DNA of 64,000 nucleotides, from assembly GCA_949152475.1 (NCBI GenBank), contig OX424566.1:17941177-18005176 (forward strand), read 5' to 3'. Position 1 is the stretch's first letter; each line of letters begins with the position of its first letter. The notes beneath the pieces were generated by a model. It saw only the letters and a list, made by a program, of their open reading frames with translations. It searched no databases and had not been told where the DNA came from. Of the stretch, positions 15,511 to 56,249 are shown one piece after another. The position numbers and the translations under genes are program-made. The stretch is from Terebella lapidaria. Taxonomy: Eukaryota > Annelida > Polychaeta > Terebellida > Terebellidae.

Positions 15511-16737
15511 GGTAGTCCGCTGAACAGTGAGCGGAGATTGTCAAAGCGTTTTTTAAAACAAATAACTGTATCCTACGGTGGCTCCAATATGACATAATAA
15601 TTTTTTTTATTTACGATAATAAAAATTTTCTGAGGGACTTTACCGAGAAGGTTTAAAATAATCTAATTGGTGGGCGAAACGTTTACCCCACCAGAAAAAC
15701 TATTTCCCCCGTGAGGGGAATGTTTTCCTTGCGAGGAAAATGTATTCCCGACGAGGTAAACTATTTTCCCTGCGAGGAAAACGTTTTACCCGTGAGAAAA
15801 ACTATTTCCCCCGTGAGGGAAATGTTTCCCTCGCGAGGAAAACGTTTACCCCATGAGAAAAACTATTTCCCCTGTGAGGGAACCGTTTCCCTCGCGAGGA
15901 AAACGTTTACCCCGCGAGAAAAACTATTTCCCCCGTGAGGGAAATGTTTTCCTTGCGAGGAAAATGTATTTCCCGCGAGTTAAACTATTTTCCCTCCCGG
16001 GATAAATGTTATATACTCGCGGGATAAACTCGCGGGATAAATGTTTTCCTCACGGGGGAAATAGTTTTCCTCGCGGGGTAAATGTTTTCCTCGCGAGGGA
16101 AACATTTCCCCTGCAGGGAAAATAGTTTAACTCGCGGGGTAAATGTTTTCCTCGCGACGCGAGGGAAATATTTCCCCTGCAGGGAAAATATTTTAACTCA
16201 CAGGAGAAATGTTTTCCTCGCGAGGGAAACATTTCCCCTGCAGGGAAAATAGTTTACCTTGCGGGAGAAATGTTTTCCCCGTCAATTAGATTATTTAATA
16301 TTTTGTTCCCAAGGCCCCCAACAAAATTTTTATTATTCTAGAAAAAAATATTTATTATGTCATATTGGAGCCACCGTAGTATCCACATAATCTAGAGCTT
16401 CAAAATGATATATTATTTAGAGTAAATGTTCAGCATCCTAAAAATGAAAAGAAAATAGGGGGTCACCGTATCCGTTTGCATGGAAAACACGATGCAAGAT
16501 GTGAATATGGACAAAAAAATGTGCAAAAATACCATAATTCATGTCATTTTAGGTAAATGTTTGTGATTTTGATCGAAAATGTAGAAGAAACGAGCACGGT
16601 GACCCCATATTTCCTCTTCAGTATTAGGATGCTGATCATTTACTCTATGAAATATAAAACATTTTGAAGAGATAATATTCAAGAAATGACTTTTAAATTT
16701 TGACTCTTCGTTACCTCACTGTTTGTAGCGGACTACG
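15511..16737. mobile_element. TTAA-flanked foldback element carrying inverted minisatellite arms
   Basis: TTAA occurs at 15507-15510 and 16738-16741. The ends are inverted: GGTAGTCCGCT on the left and its near reverse complement AGCGGACTACG on the right. Further in, 'tacggtggctccaatatgac' (15577) pairs with the reverse copy near 16350-16375. Two minisatellite blocks of about 19-bp units ('aactatttcccccgtgagg' type, 15690-16000, and the reverse type, 16015-16280) face each other. A third hairpin (16415-16475 against 16590-16650, with GGTGACCCC-like arms) lies in the right part. No transposase is encoded, so the element is non-autonomous. The TTAA duplication suggests piggyBac-type mobilisation. 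Confidence 0.75.
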
Positions 16738-16741
16738 TTAA

Positions 16742-17184
16742 AATATTATGTCACATGATTTCCATCAAATGTACATGTAGGTCAATGCACTTTGATGATA
16801 TAATACCATTCTCACACCCAAAATTTGTAGACATTGAATTGAAAGATATTGAGGGAAAAAAACCCTACCTACCGACCCTAGTAATTTTCAAGATGTTGCC
16901 TGAACCACACACATATTTTTTTTCGGCCTAAATATTTTTTGGGAGGTGTCCGACCTGAATCAACCACCGTAGATAAGAGTATAAAATAATGTTGACATTT
17001 CATTTCAAATATCCCCGAAAGCCATTTGTGTTTGTTTGCGCGCCCCTTCGCTTGGTATTGTGATTATCGTATCCATTAGAAACACTTCCTGGTTAAATCA
17101 TGGAGAAATATAACATGTGCGTGTATGTGGATCTTTGCTTTCGACGATAGTACACCACTTGCTGGCGAGATCTTGTACGTGAAA
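16742..17184. other. Upstream region of FReD gene 1
   Basis: AT-rich DNA with no clear TATA box at a useful distance. The block 'gaaacacttcctggtt' (17080) and the following 100 bp are also found before FReD gene 2 (40203), so the duplicated unit includes sequence 5' of the first coding exon. Confidence 0.5.
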
Positions 17185-17222
17185 ATGACAGCACCGTCTG
17201 TAGCCGATACACCGAATTGGAA

Positions 17223-23200: not shown

Positions 23201-26200
23201 ATGCTATCTCGGCGGGGTCAGGTACAACCTACCGAATGGACCTTGTCACCAGCGGTCTTTCGACAGTTGTGTGCGCTCTGGGATCGACCTCATGTGGACC
23301 TGTTTGCCACTCGCTGGAACAACAGGCTCCCCACCTTTGTGTCTCCGATCCCAGACCCCCTAGCTTGGGGTGTTGATGCTCTGTCTATGGACTGGGAGGA
23401 CCTTTTTGTTTATGCTTACCCCCCAGCCATTTTGATTCCGCAAGTGATTGCCAAGGTTCGAGCACAACATTGCCGGATTCTGCTTATTGCGCCTCTGCAA
23501 CCCGAGAAGTTGTCGTTTCCAGAGTTTCTGGATCTCCTCGTCGATTTTCCGAGGCCGTTACCTCTTCGGGGAGATCTACTGAGGCAGCCACGGTCTCCGG
23601 TGTTTCACCAGAACCCACACCAGCTGGCCATTCACGCGTGGATGCTGTCCAACAATCGTTCCGCGCAAAGGGATTTTCTGAGGAAGTGTCCTCTCGGATC
23701 GCACGACCAAATCGAAGGTCTTCTTTGGCGGTCTACGAGTCGAAATGGGCCGTCTTCAGTACTTGGTGTGAGCGCAGGCAGACTGATCCATTCATGGCCA
23801 ATGCCCCCATAATAGCTGAATTTCTAATGTTAAAATTCACGGAAGGTCGGGCGCCGTCTACCCTGGCAGGCTACAGAACGGCTATTGCTAAGACGCTTTT
23901 ACCACGACAGGGTGTGGACTATGGAACTGATCAGGCCTTGACCTTATTGCTTAAAAACTTCGAGGTAGATCGTCCTGTGGCGCGAAACCCCACTCCTACG
24001 TGTGACTTGTCGTTGGTCTTGAACCGTCTGGCATCAGCCCCGTTCGAGCCCCTGGCTTCGGCGCCCCTCAGGTTAGTCACTTGGAAAACAGTCTTTCTCC
24101 TTGCCCTAGCCTCTGGCAGGCGTCGAGGTGAGATACACGCTTTGGATGCGTCTAAGATTAGCTGGAAGGAGAACTATGCTCAGGTCAGACTGGGTGTCCT
24201 CCCGTCTTTTCTCTCGAAAACCCAGCTCTCTACGGCCCCTCCTTTGGCGATTGTGATCCCCGCTCTCGATGCCTCTCTTGGCACAGACTTGGAGAGTAAA
24301 GGTTTTCGACAAGGCAAAAAGCTTCTTTTCGTCTCTTATCTGAAAAGCTTCAAAAACGATATTCGCTCTCCGACTATCTCTTCTTGGATTAAGAAGTGCA
24401 TTCGGCTCTGTTACGATCTTGCCGATCAGCCGACCGATTGTTCGTTTCGGGTACGGGCGCATGACGTACAGGTCATGGCTGCGTCATTGGCTTATATTGG
24501 TAATACACCATTATCTCAGGTTATGAGTGCATGTTCTTGGTCTTGCCATAACACGTTTACTTCTCATTATCTCAGAGACATAGCCTGGACGTCTGAGGAC
24601 GGCATGCATCTTGGACCGGTCGTTGCAAGTCAGCACGTCATCCCTGGACAAGCATCTTCCAATTGAGGAATTTTGGTTACCTTAGTTGCTCCACTGAGAG
24701 CTTTTGTTTTTCTTTTATGGCTGTGCAAAAACTGAAAAACTTTTTTTACAAAAAAAAAAACTCCAATGAAAACCACACAAAAACATCAAGGATTGTTCGG
24801 ACTATGTGTCGCTTCAGTTGATCCGGATGGATTCCTTAGTTCTGTGGATATTAGTTCAAAGGATTGTGAACTGTATATATACTCACTCGGATATATTGTT
24901 CAGGGAAGTTTCCCAGATTCTCCTAATTTAAGTACCATTGTTACCTTGGACTTGGATTGATTTGACTCTTACACGCATGGCGTGAGTGAGTGGATTCTTT
25001 CCATGGAAAGAAAATTCAAGTCTAGTAGAAGTGAAGAGGATTCGGGACTGAAGCCTTCTTCACAAGGTATGTTGCACTAATATTTATATATATTTTTTTA
25101 TATCATGAAAGAATGACCTCCGTGATACTATCCGGGTAGACTTCTAGGGACGGGTTCAAATCCCACCTCCAATGTCTATTCTGAATTTTACCCGTGTAGT
25201 ATTATGGAGGTAATGTATAGGACAATAATTCGTCGTTTTAAAGGTTAAAACTAGTATTATTTACTATACTTACCTCCATAATACTACCAAAGTGCCCACC
25301 CAACCTACCCCGTTTCCTTTGTACTCTTCCCTGAGACAAGGAATTAGGAATGGAGGAAGTGGCTACGGTGCTGCCCCTGGTGGCAGCAAGGGAGGGGTCA
25401 TTCTTTATTCTTCCCCATATGAGAGGTTTCTCTATGGGGGAGCCTAATTTAAGTAGGCTGTTAGGAGTTACCCGTGTAGTATTATGGAGGTAAGTATAGT
25501 GAATAATACTAGTTTTAAGCTTTAAAACGACGAATTAAAGCAGCTGTATGTCCCGAGGATTACTGTGGACCTGGTGGAGACTGCACCACTGACACGGGCA
25601 CTCCGAGATGTGAATGCAAACCTGGATATAGCGGTGAACTCTGCACTGCACGTAAGTATGGTTTATGAAATAAAGATCTTTAATGTCGTTGATGGCAAAC
25701 ACTTCACTTAAATCATTATGGGATGAACTGAATGGATAGACAAGCCAAACTCAAAACTGATACGTGATATTGCTCGAATACAAAAGAGTTGGGGGGGGGG
25801 GGGGGGTCTTTTTATCTTTGCAGAATCTGTTTTGAGTCTACCAAGTATCGATGATCCCAATGTGTTTGTTTTTTGTATAATTTGTAAGCTCCGCGAGACT
25901 GCTGGGACCTGCTGGCCAGGAATGTGACAGAGAGTGGCGTGTACACCATCAACATCAACGACGGAACCTGCAGCCCCAGAACCCTCGAAGTCTTCTGTGA
26001 CATGACCACGGATGGGGGAGGCTGGACGGTATGGCTGTTATACGGCTAACGATGTCATTAACTGTCACATATTTGTCATATTGGTTCGTTAGTAGACAAC
26101 TGGCAACGACAGAATATCACTATACGGTCTATATTATAGTGATAATTTCCTTTCATCCATGAGGCCATAATTCAATTTTTTTCAGCCTTTAATTCGTCAA

Positions 26201-27060
26201 CAAAAAATGTTTATTTTTGCTTCAGATGCTATTCCGTATACAGGATGGCTCGGTGAGCTTCAACCGAAACTGGCTGGATTATAGCCTTGGCTTTGGCAAC
26301 CTATCAGGCGAATATTGGATTGGTTCGTATGATGAGTCTGAAGTTTGAAAGTAAGTGGGAAACGGAAGTTTTCCAGACAATTACTTGTTTTCTATTTTTA
26401 CATTGCTGGAGCAGGTAATGACGCAATGCACAGTCTGACTGCGTTAAATGGTCGGACGTATGACGTTAATTTCAACCTGACGTCAAACAGCCAAGGCGAA
26501 CGGTACGCACAATACACAGAGTTCCGCATCGGGTCTCAGGCTGAGAGGTACAAACTCACCTTTGGCACATACCAGGGTACCGCAGGTGAATTAAGCTTTT
26601 GATTCGATATTTCAGTTTGCACCGACTGTCAAATGGAATATATAAACATGGGACAAAATTAGAAATCTAAGAAGATTACAGTTGGTAGGAACACGTACAG
26701 AACCATATTTGAGTCTGTAACTGTCAGACTCTTCTCAAAATGCTCAAAACTTCTGTATCGTATACATGTACTTTATCTCAGTGATTCTTTTCAACTTTGC
26801 TCGTTCGACTAGGAGACAGTTTGAGGGGTCACAACAACAGATTTTTCAGCACTTATGATTTCGACACTGACGCAGATTCATCTACGAACTGTGCTCAACA
26901 TTTCACGGGCGGTTGGTGGTATGCCAATTGTTTCGAGGCCAAATTAACAGGACTATACGATCAAGGTCTAGGCTACGGCAGGGGAATCTGTTTGGATAAA
27001 TATTTGGGTTTATACAACTTCTTAGACTATGCAGACATGAAAATTAGACCCCACCTTTGA
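17223..27060 (+). CDS. Type II membrane fibrinogen-related protein with EGF domain (copy 1), about 356 aa
   Basis: Exons 17223-17529, 25544-25651, 25889-26028, 26226-26322, 26415-26585 and 26813-27060 join in frame. Residues 1-35 are cytoplasmic ([15 protein letters not shown]), 36-58 a membrane segment ([18 protein letters not shown]..), and 75-102 a Thr/Ser-rich stalk. Residues 105-136 form a six-cysteine EGF module ([12 protein letters not shown] ... [12 protein letters not shown]). From about 139 to the end is a fibrinogen C-terminal domain ([49 protein letters not shown]). A calcium-loop-like DFDTDAD is present. Family members are surface or secreted lectin-like receptors; binding to acetylated sugars is known for relatives and only inferred here. 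The ATG at 17185, matching the start of copy 2, is out of frame, so 17223 is chosen. A DIRS-like element fills most of intron 1. Confidence 0.82.
18375..25536 (+). mobile_element. DIRS-like (tyrosine-recombinase) retrotransposon, nearly whole, young
   Basis: This is a DIRS1-type element of about 7.2 kb on the plus strand. Its inverted terminal repeats are near 18375-18560 and 25340-25536. An internal complementary region near 25125-25290 matches both outer ends, as DIRS elements have. Parts in order: a cysteine-rich gag-like N-terminal zinc-knuckle region (about 18.7-19.15 kb), a GC-rich spacer, a gag-like region (about 19.8-21.7 kb), reverse transcriptase (about 22.0-22.6 kb), RNase H (about 22.6-23.2 kb) and tyrosine recombinase (about 23.6-24.67 kb). 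Splicing inside the 5' part is plausible, as some family members use introns. The two terminal repeats are almost identical over about 150 bp, so the insertion is recent. It looks close to whole, with at most one or two breaks. It lies inside intron 1 of FReD gene 1. Confidence 0.9.
25340..25536. repeat. Right inverted terminal repeat of the DIRS-like element
   Basis: It is the reverse complement of the left end (18375-18560), with about one difference over the best 150 bp. The terminal part is also represented in the internal complementary region just upstream. Its last base lies about 7 bp before the EGF exon of FReD gene 1. Confidence 0.8.
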
Positions 27061-27092
27061 AGAAAAAGTGTAGTCCAGCTACACTTATACAT

Positions 27093-27109: not shown

Positions 27110-30100
27110 GGTTTTACATATGTATGTCCACACTTTGACCTCTATAATAAACACTTTTGGATAATCTTACCTGGCTTAAAAATAAGAGGTTGAAGATGCC
27201 ATTACATTTTTTGATGGCAAACTCTTTCAAACTGGTCGTTCTATGCCCCTCAGACTCATGTCATTCATAAAGGTTTCTTGACGAAACCCGACTGAGTCAG
27301 TGGTCACTCTTAGAGATTTCCGACGAAACTGTTCCACCGGAATCGCCATTACGCTTGTCCCTGCGTTTAGCGGCAAGACAAAGGATCTTACTTCAGACTT
27401 TCAAATTTGGAGTTTGCTTTCAATCTTGTGGATTACGATCGTTTTCCAACGGATTTCTTCTCAATATAAGTGTACTTCGTACAGCTACTGTAGATTAGAG
27501 TGGTTTGAGTACAGATTTTTGTGAGGAACTGGTAATTCCTCGAGTGTTACTTAGTTTCCTCCATTATCGTCCGTACCTTTGTTTACTATGGAATTTTTCC
27601 AGATGAAGTGCGCGGGCTGTAAACAATTCCTGTGATAGTGGGAGCTGCATGTAAACTTGTGTGCATGTCGTTCCTTGTGCAGGCCGACGGCTTGATGTGG
27701 TCTTTGTGCATGGAATTTCAACCCTGACGTTTCGGTCTGTGAACGGTTATCTGACTTTGTTCTGTTTCCCCAGTGTTCCAGTTATTGTCTAGTAACCACG
27801 GGTAGTGCCCCTAGAAGTTGTTTCCCGTCCTTGATTACGCAGATTTCCAGGGATTCGGGGTCGGCTTCTGGGGGGTGGGGGTTTTGAGTCTCTGCTCCGC
27901 CACGGGTATACAGGACTCGGCAATGGGTTCCCGGGACCCAGGTTCCGGTGCCTGGAATCAGGGCTACATCCCCTCAGAACTTGCCAGGGCCCCTTTGGAA
28001 CCATACTTCGGTTCTTGGGGATCGTTTTCATGGTTCTAGGGCCCGGCATGTTGGGTCTGGAACTGAGCTCCCGGCCTCTGTTACGGCTTCTGGGAACCAG
28101 ATTTCGGTTCTTGGAATCCAGGTGTTGGCTCCGGGAGTCAGAGCCCGCTCTCCCATATTTTGTTCATGACCAGTCGCTAGGGGTTCTTATCCATTATCCC
28201 CTAAGATTGTAGTCTTGAATAGAACGACTCGGGGTCATTCTAAAACTTGAGATACTACTTTTGTCAATTTTAAAAAAGATGTCAGTGTCCTTCGATCTAA
28301 TGACTCGCTTTCTTCCGCAGGTAGCAGAAGACTTCGAGCAAGTAGAGCTGCCGCCACCCCCACAGCTGCCTACGGACATGCCTGTGCACTTACCTCCTCT
28401 GCCACCTTCCACGCCTTCGCCTTCCCGTTCTGATTCCTCGCCTTCAGAGAGGTCTCAAGCCACAATGGTTTACCATTCTCCTAAGGCCCCTACTTCTGTG
28501 ACGGGGTTTTTGTCCAGGGCTGAGTTTAGGGCGGAAATGGAGAGAATGCACCGTGATTTTCTTGGCCGTCTGGAGCATCTCTTGGCAAATCAGCCTCCCA
28601 GGGTTCCAGAGGTGCAGCGAGTGTCGGCTTCGGTTCCTTCATTGCCTTCTGGCTCAGACTCAGAAGATTTCCCATTGTTGTCAGGGCAGGAGGGTATTCG
28701 TCCTTTGGGGGAGGGTATTCTCTGCTTCCCTGGATGACGAGGAGGAATCGTCAAACACTTACCATCGAACGTGGGCTGAGAAGTTGGAGATCTGAGGTCT
28801 GAGAAGTAAGAGTGAGCTCTCCAGCCAAGAGAGCTCACTCTTTCACTGAGAGGGAACTCCAACAGCCACGGGTTCCACAGGATGCTCTTAGGTTCTCTTT
28901 GGCTCCGGGGGTGCATAAAACCTGACGAAGAGCATGCTGGAAACCTCGGAGTGTCTGGGTGTTGGTTCCTTACCATCGAAACCAAAGATACAGGACTTCC
29001 ATCCGGTGCTTCTGGAGGTGGAATCAGCTTCACCCTTTCTGTTCTCTGTGGGATAGCATGACAAGGTGGAGTCCCTCAAGGCTCGTCTTGAGGTGAGGGA
29101 CCGGGCCAAGGCAACTTCAGAGGCAACTGTTGTTCAGTCTCCGGCTCTGGAGAGGATGTCCAGGATGTTGACACAACAGCGGTTGGAAAAGTCACAGCCC
29201 CAACAGCAGGAGCAATCGCGGCAGTCAGCGGGCCAGGCTGGTCGTTAAACCAGTGTGTTAAACCAGCCCTTTCGGGGCACCCTTGCAGGTGGCCAGCGAG
29301 GTGGGCAGCAGGGTCGTGGCGGCAGTGTCCTCCAGCCCAGCCAAGCCAGCGGGGCTAAGATGTCAGGTGGGTACCTCACACCCTATTACAGATCCAGGTC
29401 AGCTAGGGCTCCGTTAATATTTTGAGTATCAACGATCCTGTAGGTGCCCGACTAAACGATTTCTGGATAATCTCGACTTTGCATCGGAGGTTCGACAAGA
29501 GGTGTCTTCTGTTTCCTCCTTTGATGCTCACTCCAAAGCTGTTTTTTTTTCCTCACAATCCCGAGAGGTGCCAAGCCATGGTGGACAAGATCTCAGCCAT
29601 GATTAAAAAACGAGCGGTAGAGCCGGTGCAGTGCAAACCCAAGAGACCCAAGAGGTCTCAGGGTCGCGATGCATGGTCATGACAATCGACCTCAAGGACG
29701 CGTACTTTCACGTTCCCATCAGGAGGTCAATCAGGAAGTACCTCAGGTTCTTCCATCAGGGGCAGGTGTGGCAGTTCAGAGCACTGCCATTCGGCCTGTC
29801 CACTGCCCCATGGATTTTCACCATGTGTGTCAGGGAACTTCAGGTCTGGGCTCATCACCATGGCGTAGTGCTGTATCAGTATCTGGACGACTGGTTAATC
29901 AGGCATGAGTGTCCGAGAAGACTCATCCGTCGAGCCCAGTGGGTGCTGGATATTTGCCAGTTCACAGGCTTCAATATCAACCAAAAAAGTCAGACTTTTC
30001 TCCTCGGCAAGACTTCATTTTTCTGGGCTATCAATTTCGGACTATCTCTGTAGCTGTTATCCCAACCGAGGAGCATCAATTAGGAGCATTATTAGAGCAG

Positions 30101-32045
30101 TTCCGCGGCCTTTTTGGTCAGAGTCTGCAGCCCGCCTTTCGCTGGCAGTCTCTCATCGGGACTCTAGCTTCGACGGAAAAGATGGTGCCTTCAGGCCATC
30201 TTCATATGAGGTCCTTCTAGTTGCATCTCCATGCCAACTGGTTACAAGCAACCGGGGACATGTCACAATTAGTGTCCGTGACTGATCAAGTCGTCTGCAA
30301 ACTGCGTTGGTGGTTGGACCCCCAAGCAATTTGCTCTGCGGGGCACTGTTCCGTCTGCCTCCTCCCTCCAGGTATCTCTTTACGTAGGCCCGTATGTAGG
30401 GATAGGGCGCTCACTGGGATTCCCAGGAGATTTCGGGACTGTGGTCTCCTCAACAGGACGAGCATATCAATGTCCTAGAGCTGTGGAGGGTTTTCCTAGC
30501 ATTACAGCATTGGGAATGTCAGTTTCCGATCAGGTGGTTCTCCTAGCAGCTGACAATTCTATGGTCGTGGCCTACATGAACCAGCAAGGGGGCACCAAGT
30601 CGGCATCCCTGTGTCATCTGACTGTGAATTACGTTCATGGCTCGTCACATTCCGGGCCATAAGAATGTGTAGGCCGACCGCCTTTTGCACCTTGGCCAAA
30701 TTCAGCCGAGGAAATGGTCATTGTCACAAGTGATTTTCTAGGCGATTTGCGATCTTTGGGGCATGCTGTCAGTGGATCTTTTCACCACGAGGTGGAATGC
30801 CAAGCTTCCCACCCTTGTCTCGCCGATTTCGGACCAGCAGGCTTGGGAAAACAATGTGAAGTCAGTGGATTGGGACGTGATGTTTCTATATGCCTTACCA
30901 GCGGCTGTACAGTGTGAATCCACCTTTAGAGCTCTCCGCATTTACGTCAATGCACGAAAGAGCTACATGTCAGGAAACGTTTGTTTTACGTTGCTTTTAA
31001 GAAAAGTTTCTGGAAAAAATATCAGAGCGGCAACGATCTCATCTAGGGTAAAGAAGTGTGTCCTTTTCTGCTACGAAAAGTCTAATACAAATATGTCGGG
31101 CTCCTTTCATGTAAAGGCGCATGATATGTGAGCTGTAGCTTTCATGAATTATGTTGCATCGTCCGATGTCATGCAGACCTGTACACAAAACTCTAACAAT
31201 ACTTTGGTTTCCTTCTACTGCAGGGAACTATCACTTGGGGCCAGTGGTAGCTACGCAAAGTGAGGTCCACATGTAACTAATGTACCTAGGGACTGCACAA
31301 TGTACATATAGACCTTTTCAGTTGGACCGCCAGTTCGGGGTTCGGTTTGTCCCTCTTATTTGGGTGGAAAAAAATTTGAGCTGTCTCGCCGACAGCAAGA
31401 CAACTGCGGGCGAACCTCCTCAACGGCGTCACTCTTTTAACCAGTTACTATTCAGTTATTATAATTAGTTTAATAATTCTTCTCACATGCGTGATTAGAC
31501 CTCTTCTGATCTTCTAGTCAGAGGTAAAAGACGAACCCTTTTGTAATTACTCGCACGTGTGATTTACATTCAATAATCTTAAATTAACTCATATATTCAT
31601 TAAACATTGACTTAGTGCATTTATGCCTCGATGATGACTTTGTGAGGGAGAGGGGCTAGCTCACCTCCTTTGGTTATTATGAAATAACCCAAAAGTATCC
31701 ATTACCGAGGTCGAAGTGTGAACATAAATAGGATGTTTTATGCTGTTAAAACCTGTATTTATTACACACTTACCTCTATAATAGACAAGGTGATTTTCCC
31801 TCACGCCTCCCCTGCCAAACTTGTTAGGGAACAAAGGTGGTTCTGGTGGAACAGTTTCGTCAAGAAATCTCTTAGAGTGACCCCTGACTCAGTCGGGGTT
31901 CGTCAAGAAAACTTAATGAATGTGATGAGTCTGAGGGGCATGGAACGACCAGTATTACAGAGTTTGCAGTAAGATTTCCCAAAAGTGTTTATTATAGAGG
32001 TAAGTGTGTAATAAAAACTGGTTTCAACAGGTTAAAATTATTGAT
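27110..32045 (+). mobile_element. Second DIRS-like retrotransposon, older and broken
   Basis: Inverted terminal repeats are found at about 27110-27350 and 31830-32045 and differ by roughly a tenth of their bases. An internal complementary region lies near 31690-31790. Between them are a gag-like region (about 28.2-29.25 kb), reverse transcriptase (about 29.6-30.05 kb), RNase H (about 30.3-30.65 kb) and a remnant of the tyrosine recombinase (about 31.0-31.3 kb). The element is a different subfamily from the one at 18.4 kb: its termini share no obvious sequence with it. It carries multiple breaks, on the order of five to ten, and is much older. Confidence 0.82.
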
Positions 32046-40113: not shown

Positions 40114-40308
40114 AATAAAAAGAAGAAGAAGAAAAAAGTATCGCCCCTTTTCAGCGTAAGTACAGCCGGGAAAAAGTTGCCCACGCAATTGCACAGGTAT
40201 TCCGAAACACTTCCTGGTTCAACCATCAAAATATGTGTGTATGTCTACAGATGTATATATGCATACAACGACAGAACACCACTTGCTGACGAGATCTCGT
40301 ACGTGAAA

Positions 40309-43300
40309 ATGACAGCACCATCTGTAGACGATAATTACACCAATTTGGAAATGTCTTCCAATGTTTCCAAAGGAACACATCCACCGAAATCAGATTCCAC
40401 AGCGGATCTGAAAGCCCTGCTTGAAGAGATGAAATGTCGACACACAACGAAGAAACTCTTGGCTGTTTCTGTACCAGCGTATGCCCTGCTGGCAACTGTG
40501 CTGGCTTTGTTAGTGGTAGATGTGACCAATCAAACACCCCCTGAGACTTGTCACTGTATCCAGACTGAAGGAACCCCAGGTAAGTGATTTACATATTTAT
40601 GTGAAGCTTGTGGTTGTTTTCAATGTCTGCGAATACTGGGTCGTTCCATTCATCAATGGAAGGTTACTTTAAGCTTAAACCATAGTTTGCATTGTTCTCC
40701 CAGGTGTTTAATTGATGCTGTATGTTGGTTAAACACCTGCCGGCCACGGCTGAGTAGTTTTCTATATGGATTAAAGCTATACTGCCTTCGAATGTATGCA
40801 ATATTTTTTTTCAAAACTAATTTTTTTGTGCAACACATCTAATGCAAGATTACAAAAGGTGTGCTCTATGATTTTGACGATTACAAATTGTCCGAGTTGT
40901 CTTTTCGTCCGTTTTAATACACAATGGACCAATTCACAGAATTTCCCGCCAAATTTGCCCAACGCCCGACCAATCAGCGACTGGTCTCACTAACGGCACT
41001 GGTCTCACTAGTTCGTCATTGGAAAGTAGTGATGAACGTTTTCACAGAGCATTAACATTCTACTATAGCAATGATCTCAGTATTGGTAATAACGTACACA
41101 ATTGTCATATACCTCGTAGACGATCTCTGCAAAAGATGGATATACGTACAGTACTACACTGGAATGAATAACTAATTTAAACTGGTTCACCAACATGAGT
41201 CCTATGACCTTCATATTTATAAACGTACCTATCTTATCTCGAATTCAAATATTATAATTACCTGAACAAGTGAGAATATAAATAGGCCCCAAGATGTCTG
41301 GAATTTCATGATAGTAAATGTAGCCTGATATCACACTACCAATATAAATGTAGTAATTTTAGCGACTGTTACTCCCGTCCCTCCCGCGCACTACACATTT
41401 CCACAACAAACATTCATTCTACATGACTTACATACAGGACAAGTACACACTATACGATCACAAGCATAAACTCCATGTAGTCATGGTTACATACACAGGT
41501 CAAACCACGCACCTGCGGCCCCGCTAGCTCAGTACACTCGGCCCCGTTTACTCGACCTTGACCTTCACATGCACTGACTTCTAAACATAGAACTTGACAC
41601 ACATACTCCATACATCACGTGCACAGATACAGGCATTACAAGTATTGACACGAGCCGGGGAAACCCACTTTCCCGGTGACATCAGCGCATTGCACCACAC
41701 ATTCAACCTATCACAACACCGCTTACACTTGGCGGGAAATTACACAGCCACATGGTCCCTCGGCCCCAGTCTTCTGGGCAGAAGAGTAGTGGAAATCCCA
41801 GTGACAGGACGTATAAACTAAAGCTCCTGTAAAGACTGTCGATATTGATATACGAACTGAATACTAGTGATATATAAACCATTGGATATATGTGCAAGAT
41901 ATACAAAGGACTATAATAGAAATATATTCGACTGGGATATCACCCGACGTAGGTGAGAGTGCGGCCCTGATTGTGAGTGATTGCATCATTGACTTTATCA
42001 CCGCAATAAACAGTTAAATTGAAACTGCCGGCTTATTGAATCACACGACGACCCAGTTAAACCGGCTTAATATCGGCCGTGAACGATATTCTTCACATAA
42101 AATTTATGATATCCTGGTAATCAAATTAAATAGACATTCAACTGGTCCATTTTTACGGATGGCAGTATTAAAGGCATGCAACACACTCTTCCTATCCCAA
42201 TATTACTGAAATGGCAAATCTCACCAAACACAATTCTCATGTACTATGTTGTTTTGGGGAAATTTTTGGGGCTACATGTGGATCTGGGACTGAAAAAATA
42301 CTGCCGCTATGAAATTCTACCTAACTAAAAGGAAAAAGGTACATTGTCTGAATGCAACGAAATAGTCAGTGTGTGTCATTTCAGCAGACATACTGATTGT
42401 AAAGATAATTTGTTCTGCATGTAAAACCAGTATCCCGGATCAGTATATGTACCCAGTAAAATACCTTTAAATCACAATAGTCATGGTAAGAAAATAACTG
42501 GTCCCTCTCAGTTTTCTATCCTTGGAACCTTCATGAAAATGAGCCCACCATATAAACGTGAATTTGGAGTGAAACATGTTCGTAATCATGTTTGGTGTAA
42601 AAATTCAACCATATTCTATTGTTTCTTGCTGAAATAAGTCACCAAGGCAGTTTATGTGATTCACAGTTGAGGACAACGCACTTTTTATGGTTATATCAAT
42701 AGTCGGCAGGAGATACCCGTATGTGAGACAAGCGATTCAGTGGTTCGTTTGAATTACGGAAAAGTCCGAATATGCATGAGATGGCGGGAAAGTCTGTGAA
42801 GTGGTCCATTGCATCCATCAAACCCGAATGTAAACAAATGCCCAAATCGCGTTTAAAATCCAATATTAAAATCGAATATTTACGCGTGAACCGCCTGCTC
42901 AAATGAGCAAAATTTCCCACATGACTGGTTATAGTCATTACATTTGATGTTTGAGTACATTTGAGTACGTCTCATTCAGTTAATTCAACATATTTAATAT
43001 GAAATGCAGTTTTCAAAGAGTATTGACTGGTTCTGAAGGCAGTTGCTTTAAAATAGAGACCCCTAGAGCAACAGGGAGTTATTCAACATAGTCTCGGGCT
43101 GCCGCAAGCGACCATGTTGAATAACCCCCTGTTCCTTTGGGTTTCTCTATTTCATGAAACAGACCACATACCAGTCATACCATAGGTTGTGAGTAAATTA
43201 TTATACTTTTGCCACGGGTGACTGTGTCTAAATGGAATAGACCACAGCATGAGCTAATAGACTTTTTTCGTGTTCCGCATTTACAATGGTCCAGTGTTCG

Positions 43301-46300
43301 GCTCAAATAGGTTTTTTTTTGGTAGGAAAGTGTGTCACCGTCGAGATATGTGTCGTTGCTTAAAACTTCGAATTCAATTTAGAGGAAAAAGCGAGTTTCA
43401 TTCATATGTAAAGCAATTACGTTCTATAAACATCGGGAGGGGCAGTCTTAAAGCTGTTTTATTTTCAACCCCCAATTGGAGACATTCATACATATATAAA
43501 ATACACAATCATGTATGCATATAAAAAAACAACACACCAAAATGTCTTTAACAAGAGAAATATCATGTCAAGATTGCCCGTTACTGGGCCGTTACTAAAT
43601 ACTTGTCTCAAGAGTTCACTGCCCCGTCAGCATGTGAAAAAAAAACGTTTCACGCATCTCGTTTATATCAATATACTTGTTATCGCACAAGACGGATGCA
43701 TATAAAAAAATCATGCAAGTGTGTTTTTCGCAAAAAGATATCAGTCGAGTTTGGTCTGAGTGATGAATTCAGGATGCACGATTCCGAAGGACGAGTGTAT
43801 TCTGTGTTCATCCGCCAGACTAAACGATGAACACAGAATACACTTACAAGACAGAATACACAGAACACAGAATGTACACACTCTTATATTTCTACAATTG
43901 ATTCCTAAGCTGTAAAGTCAAAACTAAGCGAGATATTAGAAATTTTGTGGTCTGACCTTGAAACTGAGGTCAGAGGTCAAATTCAAGGTCACAATAATAT
44001 TCAGCATATATCATTTCCTATATGTCCACAATTGATCCCTAAGATATGAAATCGATAATAAGTGATATATTAGCCATTTTGTCCTGTGACCTTGAAAATG
44101 AGGTCAAAAGTCAAAATCAACGTCATCAGAATATTCGGCATATATCATTTCCTATATGTTCACAATTGATTCCTAAGCTGTAAAGTCGATAATAAGCAAG
44201 ATATTAGCCATTTTGTCCTGTTGACCTTGAAAATGAGGTCAAAAGTCAAATTCAAGGTCACTAGAATATTCAGCATATATCATTTCCTACATGTTCACAA
44301 TTGATTCCTAAGCTGTAAAGTCGCTAATAAGCAAGATATTGGCCATTTTGTCCTTTGACCTTGAAAATGAGGTCAGAGGTCAAATTCAAGTTCACGAGAA
44401 TATTCAGCATATAGCATTTCCTATATGTTCACAATTGATTCCTAAGCTGTAAAGTCGCTAGATCTAATAAGCAAGATATCGGCCATTTTGTCCTATGACC
44501 TTGAAAATGAGGTCAAAGATCAAATTCAAAGTCACGAGAATATTCAGCATATATCATTTCCTATATGTTCACAATTGATTCCTAAGCTGTAAAGTCGATA
44601 ATAAGCGAGATATTAGCAATTTTGTCCTGTGACCTTGGAAATGAGGTCAAAGGTCAAATTCAAGGTCATGAGAATTTTCAGCATATATCATTTCCTATAT
44701 GTTCACAATTGATTCCTAAGCTGTAAAGTCGCTAATAAGCAAGATATTGGCCATTTTGTCCCGTGATCTTGAAAATGAGGTCAAAGGTCAAATTCAAAGT
44801 GAAGAGAATATTCAGCATATATCATTTCCTATATGTTCACAATTGATTCCTAAGCTGCAAAGTCGCTAATAGGCAAGATATTGGCCATCGTGTCCTGTGA
44901 CCTTGAAAATGAGGTCAAAGATCAAGTTCAAGGTCACGAGAATATTCAGCATATATCATTTCCTATATGTCCACAATTGATTCCTAAGCTGTAAAGCAGA
45001 TAATAAGCGAGATATTAGCAATTTTGTCATGTGACCTTGGAAATGAGGTCAAAGGTCATATTCAAGGTCACAAGAATATTCAGCATATATCATTTCCCAT
45101 ATGTTCACAATTGATTCCTAAGCTGTAAAGTCGATATTAAGCGAGATGTTAGCCATTTTGTCCTGTGACCTTGAAAATGAGGTCAAAGGTCAAATTCAAG
45201 GTCACGAGAATATTCAGCATATATCATTTCGTATATGCCCACAATTGATTCCTAGTCTCTAATCTCAATATTAAGTGAGATATAAGGCATAATGTGTCCC
45301 ATTATAAAGCATAGGAGAATTTAACATGATAAAGTCCCATTTGGGCCGAGTTTGGCCCAAAATGGCCCACTTCGAGCGATTCAAGCGCAACGAAACTTAT
45401 ACACATCACAGGAGTACATATGAGGAGTGTTGTGTATCAAAAAGAAAAAAAGTTACTGAACAGTTTTCGAGAAAATGGCCGCCAAAGTCCAAAATCGGGC
45501 ATTTTTCGTCTAAAATGGCCGCCATTTTGAAAAAAATGCGAAAATCGAAAAACTAAAAAAAAACCTTTCCTGGAAATATTTTCAGGTATTTTGTGCAAAA
45601 TTTCAGAAAGATTCGACCGTAAACTTTAAAGATATAAATGTGAACGGACGGACGACGGACGACAGACGCAACGCCACGGCAATAGGTTATCGGACCAAAG
45701 GTGCGGTAACCTAAAAAAGTTACTGAACAGATTATAACGACCGTCAAAGTCCAAAATTGGCCAATTTTCGACGAAAACGGCCGCTCTGACCTTGAAACCG
45801 AGGTCAGAGGTCAAATTCAAGGTCACGAGAATATTTATCATATATCATTTCCTATATGTCCACAATTGATTCTTAGTCTCTAATCTCAATTTTAAGTGAG
45901 ATATTAGGCTTAATGTGTCCCATTATAAAGCATAGGAAAGTCTAGCATGGGAAAGTCCCATTTGGGCCGAGTTTGGGCCTAAAATGGCCCACTTCGAGCG
46001 ATTCAAGGGCAACGAAATTTATACATGTCACAGGAGTATATATAAGGAGTGGTTTTCATCAATAAGAAAAAAAGTTACTGAACAGATTGTGAGAAAACGA
46101 CCGTCAAAGTCCAAAATTGGCCATTTTTCAACGAAAACGGCCGCTCTGACCTTGAAACCGAGGTCAGAGGTCAAATTCAAGGTCACGAGAATATTCAGCA
46201 TATATCATTTCCTATATGTCCACAATTGATTCCAGATGGCTAATCTCGATATTAAGTGAGATATCAGGGAAAATGTGTCCCATTATAAAGTATAGGAGAA

Positions 46301-49300
46301 TTTAATATGGGAAAGTCCCACTTGAGACCCGTCGAAAAAATCTAAATGGCTGCCACACGCAGACCGGCGATTCAGGGCCAATGAAACTTATATACGTCAC
46401 AGGGGTATACGAGAGGAATGTTTTGAAATAAAAATCTCAAAAGTGGTCAGACAGTTTTTGAGAAAACGGCCGCCAAAGTCCGAAATTGGCCGTTTTTCGA
46501 CGAAAACGGCCGATCTGACCTTGAAACCGAGGTCAGAGGTCAAATTCAAGGTCACGCGAATTTTCAGCATATATCATTTCCTATATGTCCACAATTGATT
46601 CCAAGTGGTTAATCTCAATATTAAGTGAGATATCAGGAAAAATGTTCCCCATTATAAAGCATAGGAGTATTTAACATGGGAAAGTCCCATTTGGGACTGG
46701 TCGAAAAAATCAAAATGGCTGCCACACGCAGACCGGCGATTCAAGGCCAATGAAACTTATACACGTCACAGGGGTATATGAGAGGAATCTTTTGAAACAT
46801 AAAATCTCAAAAGTGGTCAGACAGTTTTTGAGAAAATGGCCGCCAAAGTTCAAAATTGGCCATTTTTCGACGAAAACGGCCGCCATTGTGGAAAAAAATG
46901 CGAAAATCAAAAAACTAAAAAATACCTCCCTCTCGAATTATTTTTAGGCATTTTTGTGCAAAATTTGAGAAAAAACCGATCGTAAACTTTAAAGATAAAA
47001 TTGTTGACGGACGGACGCCGGACGGACGCCGGACGCCGGACGCAACGCCACGGCAATAGGTTATCGGACCATAGGTCCGGTAACCTAAAAAAATGCGAAA
47101 ATCAAAAAACTAAAAAAGGCTTTTCTTGAAATATTTTTAGGTATTTTTGTGAAAAATTTCATGAAGATTCGACCGTAAACTTTAAAGATAAAAATGTGAG
47201 CGAACGGACGACGGACGGACGGATGACGGACGACGGACGCAACGCCATGCCAATAGGTTATCGGACCTAAGGTACGGTAACCTAAAAACGGAGTGCATGG
47301 TGCTTTGGGAGAATTTAAGAAATTGTATCCACAACTTCGGTAAGATCTTGAGAAATTCAGCCCAATTTTCGGCTGGACATTGAACAATTTGGTAAACAGT
47401 TACTTAAGCTAACCCTGATATTATCTAAGCAGAACACAAATTACAGCCAATTCATTAGACCAGGAGAATGATTAGCCGTTTGTTCGTGACACCTAGCCAC
47501 AGGGAGTTCATTCAGGAGTCTTAAAGCTCGATCGTTTACACCTTTCCCCTCCTATTTTTGCGATGCTGAATGTATCGTATTATAAGTTGGCACACTTCAA
47601 ATTGGAGTCAAACGGCAATTGCCTACCGAATTTAAATTTTTTATGGCAAAAATTGAAAAAAAAAATCAAGAGAAAAAGAAATCATTTACATGCATTTGTT
47701 GAAATAATATTTGCAGGTGTTTTGGCGGATGCTCGTGCTTTCAAGCACCAGATGTATCAAAATAATTCAGGCCAAATTTATCAAATATTTAGTATGGACA
47801 TTTTCACGTTCGTATAGGATGTCGTACTCCTGTATCTCTAACATCAACCCCGACCTCTTCCATGATGATTATATGGCAATGGCAATATATGGCTGACGGC
47901 ATCCGTATTTCTCGAGGGTCCATCAAGTTGAACGCACATGATAGAACCCAAGTTGTCAATCGAGAATACTCACGCTGACTGCGTGCGTACAATACATCAA
48001 CGCACAACATATTACGTAGAACATGTTCTATACTTTGCGCATGTCGTAGCGTATTTCAGAACATACACGCATCATGGCCATAGAATCACCATGGAACAGA
48101 GGTTGATTTTAGAGATAGACCCTACAGAAATATGATATCCTGTACAAAAAAATGTACGGACGCTAAAATATCCTACTAAATTTTGCTAAATTTTCTCTAT
48201 GTTATCGATGATCCTGGTGTGTTTCTGTATTTAGAAGCCCCACGAGATTGCTGGGACCTGCTGGCCAGGAACGTGACAGAGAGTGGCGTGTACACCATCA
48301 CGGTCAACGACGGAACCTGCAGCCCCAGAACCCTCGACGTCTTCTGTGACATGACGACGGATGGGGGAGGCTGGACGGTATGGCTGTTTTACAGCTAACT
48401 ATGTCATTGCACAGTCACATATGTGACGGAATAGCGGAGTTCTTCGGGCGGCTATTACGCCCACTGATCGAATAGTACGATGTATGTTGTGCGTGAACAC
48501 ACCAACAGGAAGTCCGACGTCAGTTTCAACAATATCCGATGTTTATTTGGATGATTAAGTCCGATGTACGATCACTCTCACATTCAATCGTAATCCCCAC
48601 AATAGTCCGAAGTATTAATAGTCTTGTATAAATTTGATATCCTCTAATCACAATCTTTTGGCTTAGTACCTCTCAATACAACCTCTCTCTTCAACAGATT
48701 TCTCAACTCCACATTGTCCGTGGGAAAGCGCGGGGCTAAGTCCATGATGTGTGTGGGTTTTCCCGCGTAATGTGGCAGGTGTTCATGTGAAATGGCGGGA
48801 AAGTGATGTCATGTCTGTGTGGGCGGAGTCATGTGTCTGGGAATGTGGTGATTGGTGGGATTGTGGGAGGTGATAACGTGAGCAGTGTTGTTTACATGTA
48901 GATGTGGTGCGAGGACGGTGCATGCCCGGTGACGTAAGGTAAGTAAGTATGAAGTCATGTGATGAATCTGTGCCGTGTATGTCGAGTGGGGAGAATGTGT
49001 CAGGGGCGGGTTTCGGGCCATAACAGTCGTAAATATTCTACACATACCTAGTAGTAGTTTGGTTATTTCAGACTTGTAAAAATACAGTCCATACTTAAAT
49101 ACTAGTAATACAATTACATTCAGACGGGTTAAAAAATATTACAGGTGTGATTGCACAATGAAAAAACTACAGGCAAAAGTCACCTGAGCATATGTGAAAA
49201 CATATATCCACTATAGATTTGTTTATGCCACAGAGTTGAAATAAAAAATGAGAGTGAACTACAGTGGACACGATGCTATTACTAGAATGTTTAATACGCT

Positions 49301-51099
49301 GGGTAAACCCAAATGCTGAGCCCCATATAACATAATATAAGTATTGTGTGTACCAATAACCCATGAGTCGCACAATATACAAAGGTACCGAGCATCTTAC
49401 AAGTTTGTGCAATAAAACAGTGGGATTTATTCTATCAAATGCGTGAGAAGCATCGAGAAAGGCCACATACGTCTGTAAACCATGTTTAATGTTAAATCAC
49501 AGTAATTATTTCAGGACACATACACATAATGTACCATGTTTGTGTTTAAAACCAAAGTGGTTGGAGGTAGTACAAATTAGGGGTTCCTTACGCGTAAGCA
49601 ACACAGCCTCTATTATTTTAGTAATCACGTTGGATAAACCGATGAGCGGTAATTGTTTTTATCCTTAATAATCAGTACAATTACAGAATCAGTCAAATTT
49701 CTTGGCATGTACCCATGAACTAACAGAGAAGTTACAAACATAGACAATAACACAGATATTTTGGAGTCAGCACACTTTAGGTGCTCAGCGGTAAGATTAT
49801 CCAAACCAGCAGTTGCCATTAAGTAGTTGTTTTATTATTTCAGCTATTTCATTACCAGAAAAAATCAATTTGCTAATGTGATATTCTGAGCTAGGGAATT
49901 TGTAACAAAGTAATGACAGTTACTGTTGTCCACACAGTTAAACAATGATTGATAGTGATTTTGCCACATTACTGGGATGTCATCATCCCCTTGAATCTCC
50001 GACAGTATTAGTAGTGTTAAGCAGGTTGTCAGAAGATAATAATCTGTTTAAAATCGCTGCATAAAAACATCCAAATTCGTTTGATGTTTGACATCATGTC
50101 TAGTATATATTTGTTCCAAAATCCAAATGGCTATATAAGTCACAGGCTACAATCGATTATTATTTCCAACAGCAAACATAAAGTGTCAGTTATTTTATAG
50201 CGTTATCCGATAGATGCATGGAAAAATCGATTTTGATTTGAATTTCTTAACTTTTTTTCAGATGCTATTTCGTATACAGGATGGCTCAGTGAACTTCAAT
50301 CGAAACTGGCTGGATTATCGCCTTGGCTTTGGCAACATACCAGGCGAATATTGGATTGGTTTGTATGAGGAGTTTGTGGTTTGAAATTAAGTGGGATCTG
50401 GAAGGTTTTCAGACAATTACTTGTTTTCTATTTTTACATTGCTGGGGCAGGTAATGACGCCATGCACAGTCTGACGGCGTTAAATGGTCGGACGTATGAC
50501 GTTCATTTCAATCTGACGTCAAACAGCCAAGGCGAGCGGTACGCACAGTACACGCGGTTCCGTATCGCTTCTGAAGCTGACAAGTACAGGCTTACGTTTG
50601 GCGCGTACGAGGGTACCGCAGGTGAATTAAGTTTGCACCGACTGTCAAATGAAGTATTTGGACATTTAACAGAATTCAAAATCTGAAAAGCATGAAATTG
50701 GCAGGAATACAGGACCATGTTTCAACTCGATTTTGTTATTCTCAGTGTGTTCTTACTAAGATAATAAAAATAAAATATTTTAACTCAATGTTTCGTTTCA
50801 ACTTTTACATTTTATCTCAATGTTTCGTTTCAACTTTTCTCGTTTGACCAGGAGACAGTTTGAGACAACACAACAACAGATTTTTCAGCACTTATGACTT
50901 GGACAATGACGCACATAATACTTCGAACTGTGCTCAACAATTCACGGGCGGTTGGTGGTATTACAAATGCTTCGAGGCCAGATTAACAGGACTCTATGGT
51001 CAAGGTCAACGCTTTGGCAGAGGAATCTGTTGGCATGCATTTCTGGGCTTTGAAAACTTCTTAGACTATGCAGATATGAAAATCAGACCCCACTTTTAA
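40309..51099 (+). CDS. Type II membrane fibrinogen-related protein without EGF (copy 2), about 308 aa
   Basis: Exons 40309-40579, 48238-48377, 50262-50358, 50451-50621 and 50852-51099 join in frame (total divisible by three, ending TAA). The first exon encodes [17 protein letters not shown], then a cytoplasmic and membrane part identical to copy 1 over about 40 residues. It lacks the Thr/Ser stalk. The FReD exons have the same phases and lengths as copy 1 (140, 97, 171 and 248 nt) and encode [40 protein letters not shown] (a better calcium-loop match than copy 1), GGWWYYKC and [12 protein letters not shown] searched 40580-48237 by eye for an EGF exon and saw none. Because exon 1 and the first FReD exon are both phase 1, direct joining is allowed. 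Long introns hold several repeats. AATAAA occurs at 51297. Confidence 0.8.
40775..43047 (+). mobile_element. TTAA-flanked DNA element (1.54 kb plus a 731-bp LTR insertion)
   Basis: TTAA at 40771-40774 and 43048-43051 flank inverted ends AGCTATACTGCCTTCGAA and, in reverse, AGCAACTGCCTTCAGAA. The flanking DNA matches, in reverse, the uninterrupted repeat at 4450-4560 with a single TTAA. That shows both the target duplication and the exact insertion point. Related copies lie at 2642-4085 and 6091-6570. No transposase is seen. It lies in intron 1 of FReD gene 2. Confidence 0.8.
41367..42097 (+). mobile_element. Solo LTR inside the TTAA element
   Basis: This 731-bp block is missing from the related copy at 2642-4085. 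It begins TGTTACTCCC and ends TTCTTCACA, fitting LTR TG...CA borders. It contains a TATA-like 'gtataaac' near 41813 and AATAAA near 42006, the usual order for an LTR. No internal retroelement sequence accompanies it, so it is read as a solo LTR, probably of a Gypsy-type element. I do not see a clear short target duplication, which lowers confidence. Confidence 0.5.
43052..43151. repeat. Imperfect 38-bp hairpin next to the TTAA element
   Basis: 'aatagagacccctagagcaa' through 'ttattcaaca' pairs with the reverse copy ending 'gggtttctctatt'. The loop of about 20 bp is rich in CpG ('gggctgccgcaagcgac'). Part of the same repeat occurs at 4450-4490. This is the foldback repeat into which the 40.8-kb element inserted. 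Confidence 0.65.
43152..43899. other. Intron stretch of FReD gene 2, no exon seen
   Basis: AT-rich DNA with a short inverted 'gtgtattctgtgttcatc' / 'gatgaacacagaataca' pair around 43795-43850. No EGF-like or other exon is visible. Confidence 0.45.
43900..47290. repeat. Satellite array: about 136-bp monomers, then longer composite units
   Basis: About ten monomers of 136-137 bp (43900-45240) share 'tcagcatatatcatttccta' and 'gattcctaagctgtaaagtc'. Each holds TGACCTTGAAAATGAGGTCA, then AGGTCAAAGGTCA and TTCAAGGTCA or close variants. From 45240 the units lengthen to about 365 bp or more and add 'aaagtcccatttgggccgag' and 'aaaatggccgccaaagtcc' blocks. Three times (about 45600-45712, 46995-47090 and 47170-47285) they add a GACGGACGACGG run followed by AATAGGTTATCGGACC. 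It lies inside intron 1 of FReD gene 2. Frames running through it are not genes. Confidence 0.93.
47291..48237. other. End of intron 1 of FReD gene 2, nothing recognised
   Basis: AT-rich DNA up to the first FReD exon. I saw no six-cysteine EGF exon like the one at 25544-25651 in copy 1. Confidence 0.5.
48422..49025 (+). mobile_element. Possible solo LTR in a FReD gene 2 intron
   Basis: After about 45 bp of homology to the copy 1 intron, similarity stops at a TGTGACGGAATAGC block. A GC-richer stretch then ends 'gggccataaca' at 49025, and a TATA-like 'gtataaattt' lies near 48626. The TGT...ACA borders and size would suit an LTR. There is no second copy, internal region or clear target duplication, so this is tentative. 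Confidence 0.25.
49060..50090 (-). mobile_element. LINE fragment, reverse transcriptase part
   Basis: On the minus strand, frames near 49819-49625 ([18 protein letters not shown] ... IKDKNN) and 49466-49167 ([20 protein letters not shown]) match fingers and palm motifs of non-LTR reverse transcriptases. They are typical of jockey/RTE-like LINEs in marine invertebrates. The fragment has frameshifts, lacks endonuclease and 3' end, and sits in the intron between the first two FReD exons of gene 2. The clade is not assigned. Confidence 0.75.
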
Positions 51100-51483
51100 G
51101 GAAAAACTACAGTCCAGATACTGTTAGAAGACAAATATCTGTGGCTAGAAATATTTGCGCTTTTATCTTCAGACAAATTCGCAGAGATTCAATTTTGAGT
51201 TTTTATAGCTATCATCCAATGTTTATTAGAATCACAAATAGTTGATGCAGATTTAGTTTTGCAATTTAAGAAAAAAAAAACCCGTGAAATTCGCAAAATA
51301 AATCTTTCAAGTAAATACAAGTGTGTAAATAAATACACTTTAAAATACACAGGGTAACACAAGACTGGATAAGTCACTTGTTCCCATTGTGGCCCAATTA
51401 TAACACAGACAATAATATGGCAGCGGAAATTCTAACAAAATTACAAATAAAAATAATGAAAGTAAATAACAGAAATACTAATT

Positions 51484-54359: not shown

Positions 54360-55170
54360 TTATTTTTTGACATTAGAGCGTTGGGGGCGAAGCCCCCAAC
54401 CCTCTACATGTCTATGTGCTGACTTTTTCATGGAGGTTTCATGCCAAACTATCGACGCCCGTTTTGGCAGGTAAACCTTCAGACACCTACTCCAAATGAG
54501 GATTTTCTTCGTCTTTGACATAAAATCTGTCGAATTGATGGCAAACTTCCAATATTCCACAGATGTATAATGCATAAATCGATGTGTTAGGATTGAGAAA
54601 ATAACGTAAGATCCTCAAATTATCCAAAAACGTCCAAAATGGCGGAGCCGATGGAAATTGACGTTCCCAGAATGCAAAGCAAATTTTACCGCAATGACGC
54701 ATATTATGGAACACACAATTTTTTGTGTGTTCATCATCTTGCGTGTGACATTCTCTGGTGCTATGATGAAGTAAACACGATGATACGTCTGCGACGCCAC
54801 GGCTAAATTTACCGTAATTTGACGTATTGTATCACATGACAATTAAGGTGTTCCATGCGGGGATGCGAATTTTTATTTTAAACTGGCCTTTCAATTCGCC
54901 CAGTAGGCATAGGGGGGGGGGGGGGGGGCCTATGTATCATGATATCAGATGCAGATATTTCTCATGGTTTTCAATATTTTTTTTAATTTTTTTTTTAAAT
55001 GAAATACCATTTTAGTAGGCGTAGATCTATCTGTTAGCCTACATTGAGTTCAAAATAAATTTTTACTTATTAGGAATATGAATGAAGTAGGCCTATGTTT
55101 TTCATCATAATATACTGTCGTGGTGCTGATGATGTGCTCCAGCTCTAATGTCGTCCCCCGCAGTTAGCTG
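54360..55170 (+). repeat. Duplicated about 0.85-kb segment, copy B
   Basis: This is the direct-orientation counterpart of 7640-8540. The GTTGGGGGC-GAA-GCCCCCAAC hairpin is at 54380-54400, AAAATGGCGG at 54637-54646 and TTCCCAGAATGCA at 54664-54676. The frame starting MAEPMEIDVPRMQSKFYR is retained but soon diverges from copy A. A poly(G) run near 54913 replaces the one near 8446 in copy A, at a shifted position. Confidence 0.7.
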
Positions 55171-56249
55171 CATTTTCTTGTTGTGGCATGTATGCAGTCT
55201 TGGTGGATTGTGCATACAAATTTTAGTGCTTTGTAGCTACAAAGCTCCAAACATCGCAATACATGTTGTTTTGACAAACTATTGAGTAAGACAAATTTGT
55301 AAACAAAACATCAAATGTCTGTTATTCCTACGCCGAAGTGTGACCATATGACGAATTCACTTTTATATTATTGCCCAGTGATGTAGCTCGCAGAAAACGT
55401 AAACAATATGTTGGTTTTCTTCCCCTTTCATACTTACAAAGAAGCGTGGGGAATGGTCGTTTATTTTTGGCGCTCTTGAAAAGGGGCGGGTGGAGTGTTA
55501 TATTTATTTTTATTTTGGCACTGTCAGATCGATACGGGCGGGATTTATTTTTTTAATATAAAATATTTTGAAGGTTTTTGTGGCGGCGATTCCAACGACC
55601 AACATTGTAATTTGGACTGGCCTAAGATGATTTGGCTTTTGTTTTACAATACTGCAGCTAGTTTCGGTAATACAAGTATTTATCATAATCAGCCTGATCT
55701 TGTGTTTTTTGTACTTACTGTATTCCGCTCATTAAAGAGCTGAACAATACATCCATTGCATCATTGGGAATTCGGTATTATCGCCATATTGTTTTTCCGC
55801 TATGGCCTTGATATTGCTCAAAAGTGCAATTGAGAGCACTTTCTACTCATCTCAGCATCTCAGTGAAATTGTCTCATCAAACGATTACGTCGGGAACACA
55901 CATGTTATGTGACTCAGTCTTCCATGTCCAGGATGGCTTAAAATGTGACAACACAAACTCAATTAATCGTTTCGGCACAAGATGCGCACCTTACTCTACT
56001 AATACTACTCACTCACTGAATGTATACCATATTAAAGTCGTCTGGCAATTTTTCAATCTTCATTGAATTTGAAAGAAATAGTAGCCTACGCTACATGGTC
56101 CGGAGTTTCGTTAGATGAGTATTTTAGCTCCATTATTGTGGAGCTTAAGACCCTATTTGAGTCGTCTGGGCAATCAACAATTTGAGCAATATCAGGGCCA
56201 TAGGGGACAAACAATAGGGCGATAATGTACCGAGTTTCCATTGGTGCAA
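55171..56249. other. Intergenic stretch, no gene seen
   Basis: AT-rich DNA with scattered short frames but no family I recognise. Confidence 0.45.

Follow-up and report, generated by a model that had tools for sequence, protein, structure and literature searches.

A 64,000-nucleotide stretch of DNA from the polychaete Terebella lapidaria (assembly GCA_949152475.1, contig OX424566.1, positions 17,941,177 to 18,005,176 of the forward strand), here called the window, contains a repeat array at 43893-47290 whose units carry the nuclear-receptor half-site AGGTCA, and this array sits in intron 1 of a predicted fibrinogen-domain gene. Exon 1 of the host gene (about 40201-40579, + strand), which encodes a hydrophobic N-terminal stretch recognized by eye, was placed by means of open reading frames (ORFs) and comparison with a paralog, and is followed by a donor GTAAGT at 40580, also assigned by eye. 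The other recognized exons, with the fibrinogen C-terminal domain, lie at 48235-51110 on the + strand, exon 2 beginning at about 48235; their limits were set by eye and, like those of exon 1, are approximate. The host gene and its paralog are tandem duplicated fibrinogen-domain genes at 40204-51121 and 17079-27082, with the same parts in both. The Pfam domain Fibrinogen_C is found in ORFs 26785-27060 and 50369-50686, and when the approximately joined fibrinogen domain was compared with PDB, ficolin-1 was the best match (4.7e-53) and FIBCD1 reached 2.5e-43 (best 60 of 70 matches). The host gene is predicted to be animal lectin-like. An earlier interpretation made from the letters of the window (the sequence-only reading) had placed the array in an intron of a receptor gene; the intron stands, as intron 1, and the gene may loosely be called a receptor gene, but nuclear-receptor identity is ruled out, the product being a fibrinogen-domain protein nearest to ficolins.

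Architecture of the array and its AGGTCA block

Tandem Repeats Finder detected a 134-bp tandem array at 43885-45290 and a 369-bp array at 45736-46883. Cutting at CACAATTGAT (at TACAATTGAT for monomer 1) delimited ten tandem monomers at 43893-45239 (+ strand), of 134 bp each except for one of 135 bp and one of 140 bp, with a mean pairwise identity of 0.89 (range 0.81-0.95, n=10). The unit of 136 bp given in the sequence-only reading is thus replaced by a period of 134 bp. The same reading had described a satellite of motif-bearing units across 43900-47290, and a tandem array with a motif-bearing consensus is indeed present, but the regular 134-bp array stops at 45239; the part at 45239-47290 holds three further AGGTCA blocks in long-form units and three hairpin-ended tails.

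The three long-form units (45240-46589, + strand) measure 621 bp, including tail 1, 360 bp and 369 bp; each opens with ~59 bases from the start of the unit, continues with a body of ~215-234 bp and ends with the AGGTCA block and the rest of the unit. The body is joined at about position 59, beside the left arm of the inverted repeat that the AGGTCA words form, and matches to the monomer profile break off at 59 and restart at 58 and 59, though at 43 in one unit. Four bodies and a partial one are present, with pairwise identities of 0.72-0.92 among the four, and at 46590-46884 (+ strand) a fourth unit start with its body merges into tail 2 without an AGGTCA block. The 134-bp monomer and the long form are two length variants of one repeat. 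Tail 1 (45520-45717), tail 2 (46881-47091) and tail 3 (47087-47287), all on the + strand, share the same modules, namely an A-rich stretch, a GGACGGAC-type microsatellite, a hairpin and an A run; identity to tail 1 is 0.86 for tail 2 and 0.88 for tail 3, and tails 2 and 3 share 0.85. Their hairpins of 13-14 pairs, at 45684, 47058 and 47255, gave z-scores of -3.16, -4.74 and -2.18, with 2, 0 and 7 of 200 shuffles, respectively, folding equally well, and clear microsatellites at 47008-47035 and 47204-47239 adjoin hairpins. No microsatellite was detected by Tandem Repeats Finder to the left of the array, at 40136-43885.

A 39-bp block of the form TGACCT-N8-AGGTCA-N-AGGTCA-N6-AGGTCA, which is a quasi-palindrome (GTGACCTTGAA...TTCAAGGTCAC), occurs in 13 copies at 43953-46554, ten in monomers and three in long-form units, all on the + strand. 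The first occupies 43953-43991, the remaining nine monomer blocks start at 44087, 44222, 44356, 44496, 44630, 44764, 44898, 45032 and 45166, and those in long-form units, with G as spacer of the direct repeat, are located at 45787-45825, 46147-46185 and 46516-46554. The consensus unit contains TGACCTTG, the direct repeat AGGTCA-N-AGGTCA (DR1, counted below as RGKTCA-N-RGKTCA) and TCAAGGTCA; by their usual specificities, receptors of the RXR/HNF4 and ERR/NR5A kinds would fit DR1 and TCAAGGTCA. When all 13 blocks retrieved by the search string were counted, the first half-site (TGACCT) was exact in 12, the second in 13, the third in nine and the fourth in nine (ten as RGKTCA), and every one of the 43 occurrences of AGGTCA or TGACCT at 43893-47290 falls within these blocks (12+13+9+9). 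DR1 is intact in 9/13 blocks (6/10 monomers and 3/3 long-form units), the plus-strand TCAAGGTCA in 9/13 and TGACCTTG in 12/13, and all three are found together in 7/13 (4/10 monomers and 3/3 long-form units). The motifs that the sequence-only reading had assigned to every monomer are therefore real and united in the consensus, but not in every copy, and its AGGTCA-A-AGGTCA holds as a DR1 arrangement but not in its spacer, which among the nine intact cases is A four times and G five times.

Half-site frequency and substitution rates

The repeat unit is richer in half-sites than expected by chance. Four half-sites were observed in the consensus, whereas 20,000 dinucleotide shuffles reached at most three (in 3 shuffles), and the same shuffles contained DR1 in 0 and any TCAAGGTCA in 32 cases. 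A motif scan against shuffled monomers, proposed along with the original interpretation, gave a result in favour of the motif content, as for each monomer the observed half-site count was reached in 0 to 2 of 3000 shuffles and DR1 was present in 0 to 2. Counting AGGTCA on both strands, the 43 copies in 3398 bp of array compare with 27 in the remaining 60,602 bp of the window, and the latter figure is at expectation (31 +/- 4 in 40 first-order simulations). Nine DR1 (RGKTCA) occur in the array and 0 in the rest of the window, where 0.18 were expected. As the 13 blocks descend from one unit, they are evidence for one event and not for 13 independent ones.

Substitution rates in the ten monomers were evaluated by circular shifts. 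The half-sites had 10 substitutions in 24 columns, corresponding to 0.042 per site and copy compared with 0.064 elsewhere, and 0.284 of circular shifts were as low. For the three motifs pooled, the rate was 0.040 versus 0.065 elsewhere (0.239 of shifts as low), for DR1 0.046 versus 0.061 (0.41), for TCAAGGTCA 0.056 versus 0.060 (0.51), and for TGACCTTG 0.0125 versus 0.063 (0.20). When the 13 blocks were placed on a tree and changes counted by parsimony, half-sites had 0.375 changes per column, spacers within the block 0.733 and the next 47 columns 0.489. Permutation values for the half-sites were 0.14 in comparison with spacers, 0.37 with the next columns and 0.26 with the two together. Taken whole, the block was not slower than the next 47 columns (permutation 0.60), and the final 24 alignment columns, where short and long forms differ most, showed 1.25 changes per column. 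The relative stability belongs to the ~86-bp stretch from the block onward, not to the sites as such. No significant excess conservation of half-sites was detected, either by circular shifts in the ten monomers or by permutations in the 13 blocks, at a moderate power of the half-site rate test (0.61 if the slowdown is two-fold, 0.91 if it is three-fold). The claim that the sites stay readable although other parts drift is thus not established; the sequence-only reading had named sites mutating as fast as the rest of the monomer, together with a lack of open chromatin over the array, as findings that would speak against it, and the rates point that way within this power.

A mobile-element origin and competing explanations

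The feature is probably the tandem-repeat interior of a mobile element that is modular and non-autonomous, and its AGGTCA words would hitch-hike by amplification without an effect on the host gene. This explanation is favoured because a tandem 134-bp core continues into a longer version of its own unit, because three tail copies combine a microsatellite with a hairpin, weakly because the tandem paralog is devoid of the array, because the half-sites are not significantly slower than spacers or neighbouring columns, and because half-site density outside the array is at expectation. We infer mobile-element origin, dispersal, binding competence and lack of host function alike. One ancestral unit would by chance have held the 39-bp quasi-palindrome of four AGGTCA words, and amplification would have copied this block thirteen times, so that its presence in unit after unit would reflect inheritance. 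In open chromatin, the words would be competent for RXR/HNF4 and ERR/NR5A receptors, and in the simplest case they would do nothing for the host gene.

In its design, the putative element resembles the pearl / Cg_HINE elements of bivalves (PMC7492417), which are Helentron-associated and non-autonomous, and short arrays on non-autonomous Helentrons are common in oyster according to the same source. Shared traits are tandem repeats in the centre (consensus lengths of 138-181 bp for 13 clusters there, 134 bp here), the presence of a microsatellite, a palindrome on the right, to which the tail hairpins would correspond, and two repeat kinds in one element, which is exceptional there. Long-form units and three tails are found here, unlike in pearl / Cg_HINE as that text describes them. 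In Caenorhabditis, Helitrons that contain heat shock elements (PMC6927752) are DNA transposons carrying sites for a host factor, though a different one, near genes. Alu elements with DR2 and HNF4 sites (PMC1785376; PMC3252374) are an example of nuclear-receptor sites spread by a mobile element; however, Alu is a short interspersed element (SINE) without a tandem array, and binding has been shown for Alu whereas the sites here are predicted ones.

Several points weigh against a mobile element with hitch-hiking sites. The microsatellite stands beside the hairpin here but in the left flank in pearl / Cg_HINE, and those elements have 5' and 3' subterminal inverted repeats (PMC7492417), for which a candidate is present here on the left without a significant partner on the right; for these two reasons the putative element is likened to pearl/HINE in its working and not filed as one. 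About 50 bp to the left of the array, this candidate, a 19-bp inverted repeat with perfectly matching arms around a 13-base loop (43794-43844; fold z-score -9.75), might be a left-end structure, but it has no significant right-hand partner at 45240-48200, the best matches of its arm there being equalled by 0.57 and 0.185 of shuffles. With the array masked, monomer and tail profiles matched nothing else in the window, no clear copy was present in the paralog, and the body profile gave one weak match (E 0.056, at 24039-23938), so that dispersal is unproven. The introns 1 of the two paralogs do not align at E 1e-8, and for this reason absence of the array from the paralog does not show insertion after duplication and is weak evidence; it may be due to loss or replacement. 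Homology to the window stretch 2636-6567 stops at 43152, on the left side of the array, homology to the paralog resumes at 48203, on its right side, and comparison of stretches within the window did not reveal an empty insertion site. Finally, all half-site comparisons lean to conservation, with the lower rate in monomers, the second half-site intact in 13/13 and the first in 12/13 blocks, and a mild constraint on half-sites is possible.

The shape of the block invites another explanation, a rather unlikely one, in which the AGGTCA pattern would arise as a side effect of a quasi-palindrome that serves the repeat itself, either as a site of recombination or junction or, in single-stranded intermediates, by folding into a hairpin. 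When one of the ten monomers (45106-45239) was folded as single-stranded DNA, the quasi-palindrome formed an 11-bp stem (z-score -3.56, 0/200 shuffles as good), as this explanation would predict, but the stem does not need the two middle AGGTCA words. None of 10 stem pairs was altered on both sides among 11 distinct rows, and covariation was matched by 453/500 shuffles; as compensatory change is absent, there is no sign of selection on the stem. The long-form body joined next to the left arm would fit the palindrome-linked junctions of phBglII400 (PMC5139131), yet other satellites in that text have junctions away from palindromes, and the junction seen here may be one event that was then copied.

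A regulatory role of the array is possible but unsupported. It appears improbable that the array is an enhancer through which receptors of the RXR/HNF4 or ERR/NR5A type, bound to its clustered sites, regulate the fibrinogen-domain gene. The concentration in 3.4 kb of nine DR1, none of which occurs in the other 60.6 kb, and of most AGGTCA copies of the window would suit an enhancer, as would the reports of binding to Alu elements with HNF4 sites, some of which modulate HNF4-driven transactivation (PMC3252374), and of RAR recruitment by several Alu DR2 (PMC1785376). However, the sites are not significantly conserved, and the tandem paralog has no copy, a weak argument given that its intron has no detectable homology. 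Half-site rates indistinguishable from the rest of the unit leave the enhancer or sink suggested by the sequence-only reading without support. A broader proposal, under which a dispersed repeat carried by a transposon would bring dense RXR/HNF4- and ERR/NR5A-type sites into lectin-like genes of an invertebrate or close to them, so that duplicated fibrinogen-domain genes would be wired unlike their paralogs, is decidedly improbable; if the sites were bound, a tandem-repeat transposon from another animal group would join Alu in spreading nuclear-receptor sites, and this spread would be linked to the divergence of duplicated lectin-like genes. As things stand, the array is mainly a warning that many motif copies in one satellite amount to a single event.

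Use of the receptor sites for the element's own transcription in germ line or embryo, for which NR5A2 and SINE B1 in mouse are reportedly a precedent, seems very improbable: TCAAGGTCA is present on both strands of the consensus unit, but the lack of significant site conservation speaks against such use, and non-autonomous elements of the rolling-circle type are not known to need their own transcript. It is hardly credible that the array titrates such receptors as a sink within a dispersed family, since, for all its many local sites and although a sink has been discussed in print for Alu and HNF4 (PMC3252374), nine DR1 at one locus would be too few unless the repeat is abundant, and, according to the same text, a normal hepatocyte with ~225,000 HNF4 dimers would not be affected by accessible Alu sites numbering ~7000 to 46,000, an estimate that altered accessibility or protein amount could change.

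Further searches and surroundings of the array

An explanation by a structured RNA or ribozyme was rejected, as a search of 43500-47600 against Rfam at E up to 1 yielded MIR7993 as its sole match (23.4 of the 100 bits of its gathering score, E 0.61) and no hammerhead or other known ribozyme, and as compensatory change is missing from the stem of the block. A coding explanation was rejected as well, the four ORFs of 90-104 amino acids lying wholly or partly in 45936-47399 being without a Pfam family at E 0.01. Exact block and hairpin patterns had no match in viral and prokaryotic contig collections, which says little about an animal repeat. In the open-access papers searched, no paper on repeats was found with the repeat stretches as text, judged by title, and no receptor sites like these were described in satellites or mollusc transposons, judged by title and start of the abstract.

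Besides the tandem duplicated genes, the window contains the duplicated stretches 2636-4489 / 40922-43152 and 7648-8556 / 54364-55182, and a third, partial gene unit is suggested at its left. An imperfect inverted repeat at 43051-43152, with 43-nt arms of 84% complementarity, is located where homology to 2636-6567 ends. Retroelement remains within the first fibrinogen-domain paralog (19832-24666) include a reverse transcriptase (PF00078, 4.5e-24), whereas a match resembling a tyrosine recombinase is weak and below its cut-off (PF00589, E 0.0087); they may be of DIRS/Ngaro type, and diverged relatives of their ORFs are present at about 29607-31128. Elsewhere in the window, a 35-bp tandem repeat of ~58 copies extends over 84-2116, and a 0.8-kb region at 15567-16385 is made up of repeated units around CTCGCGAGG that also match their own reverse complement.

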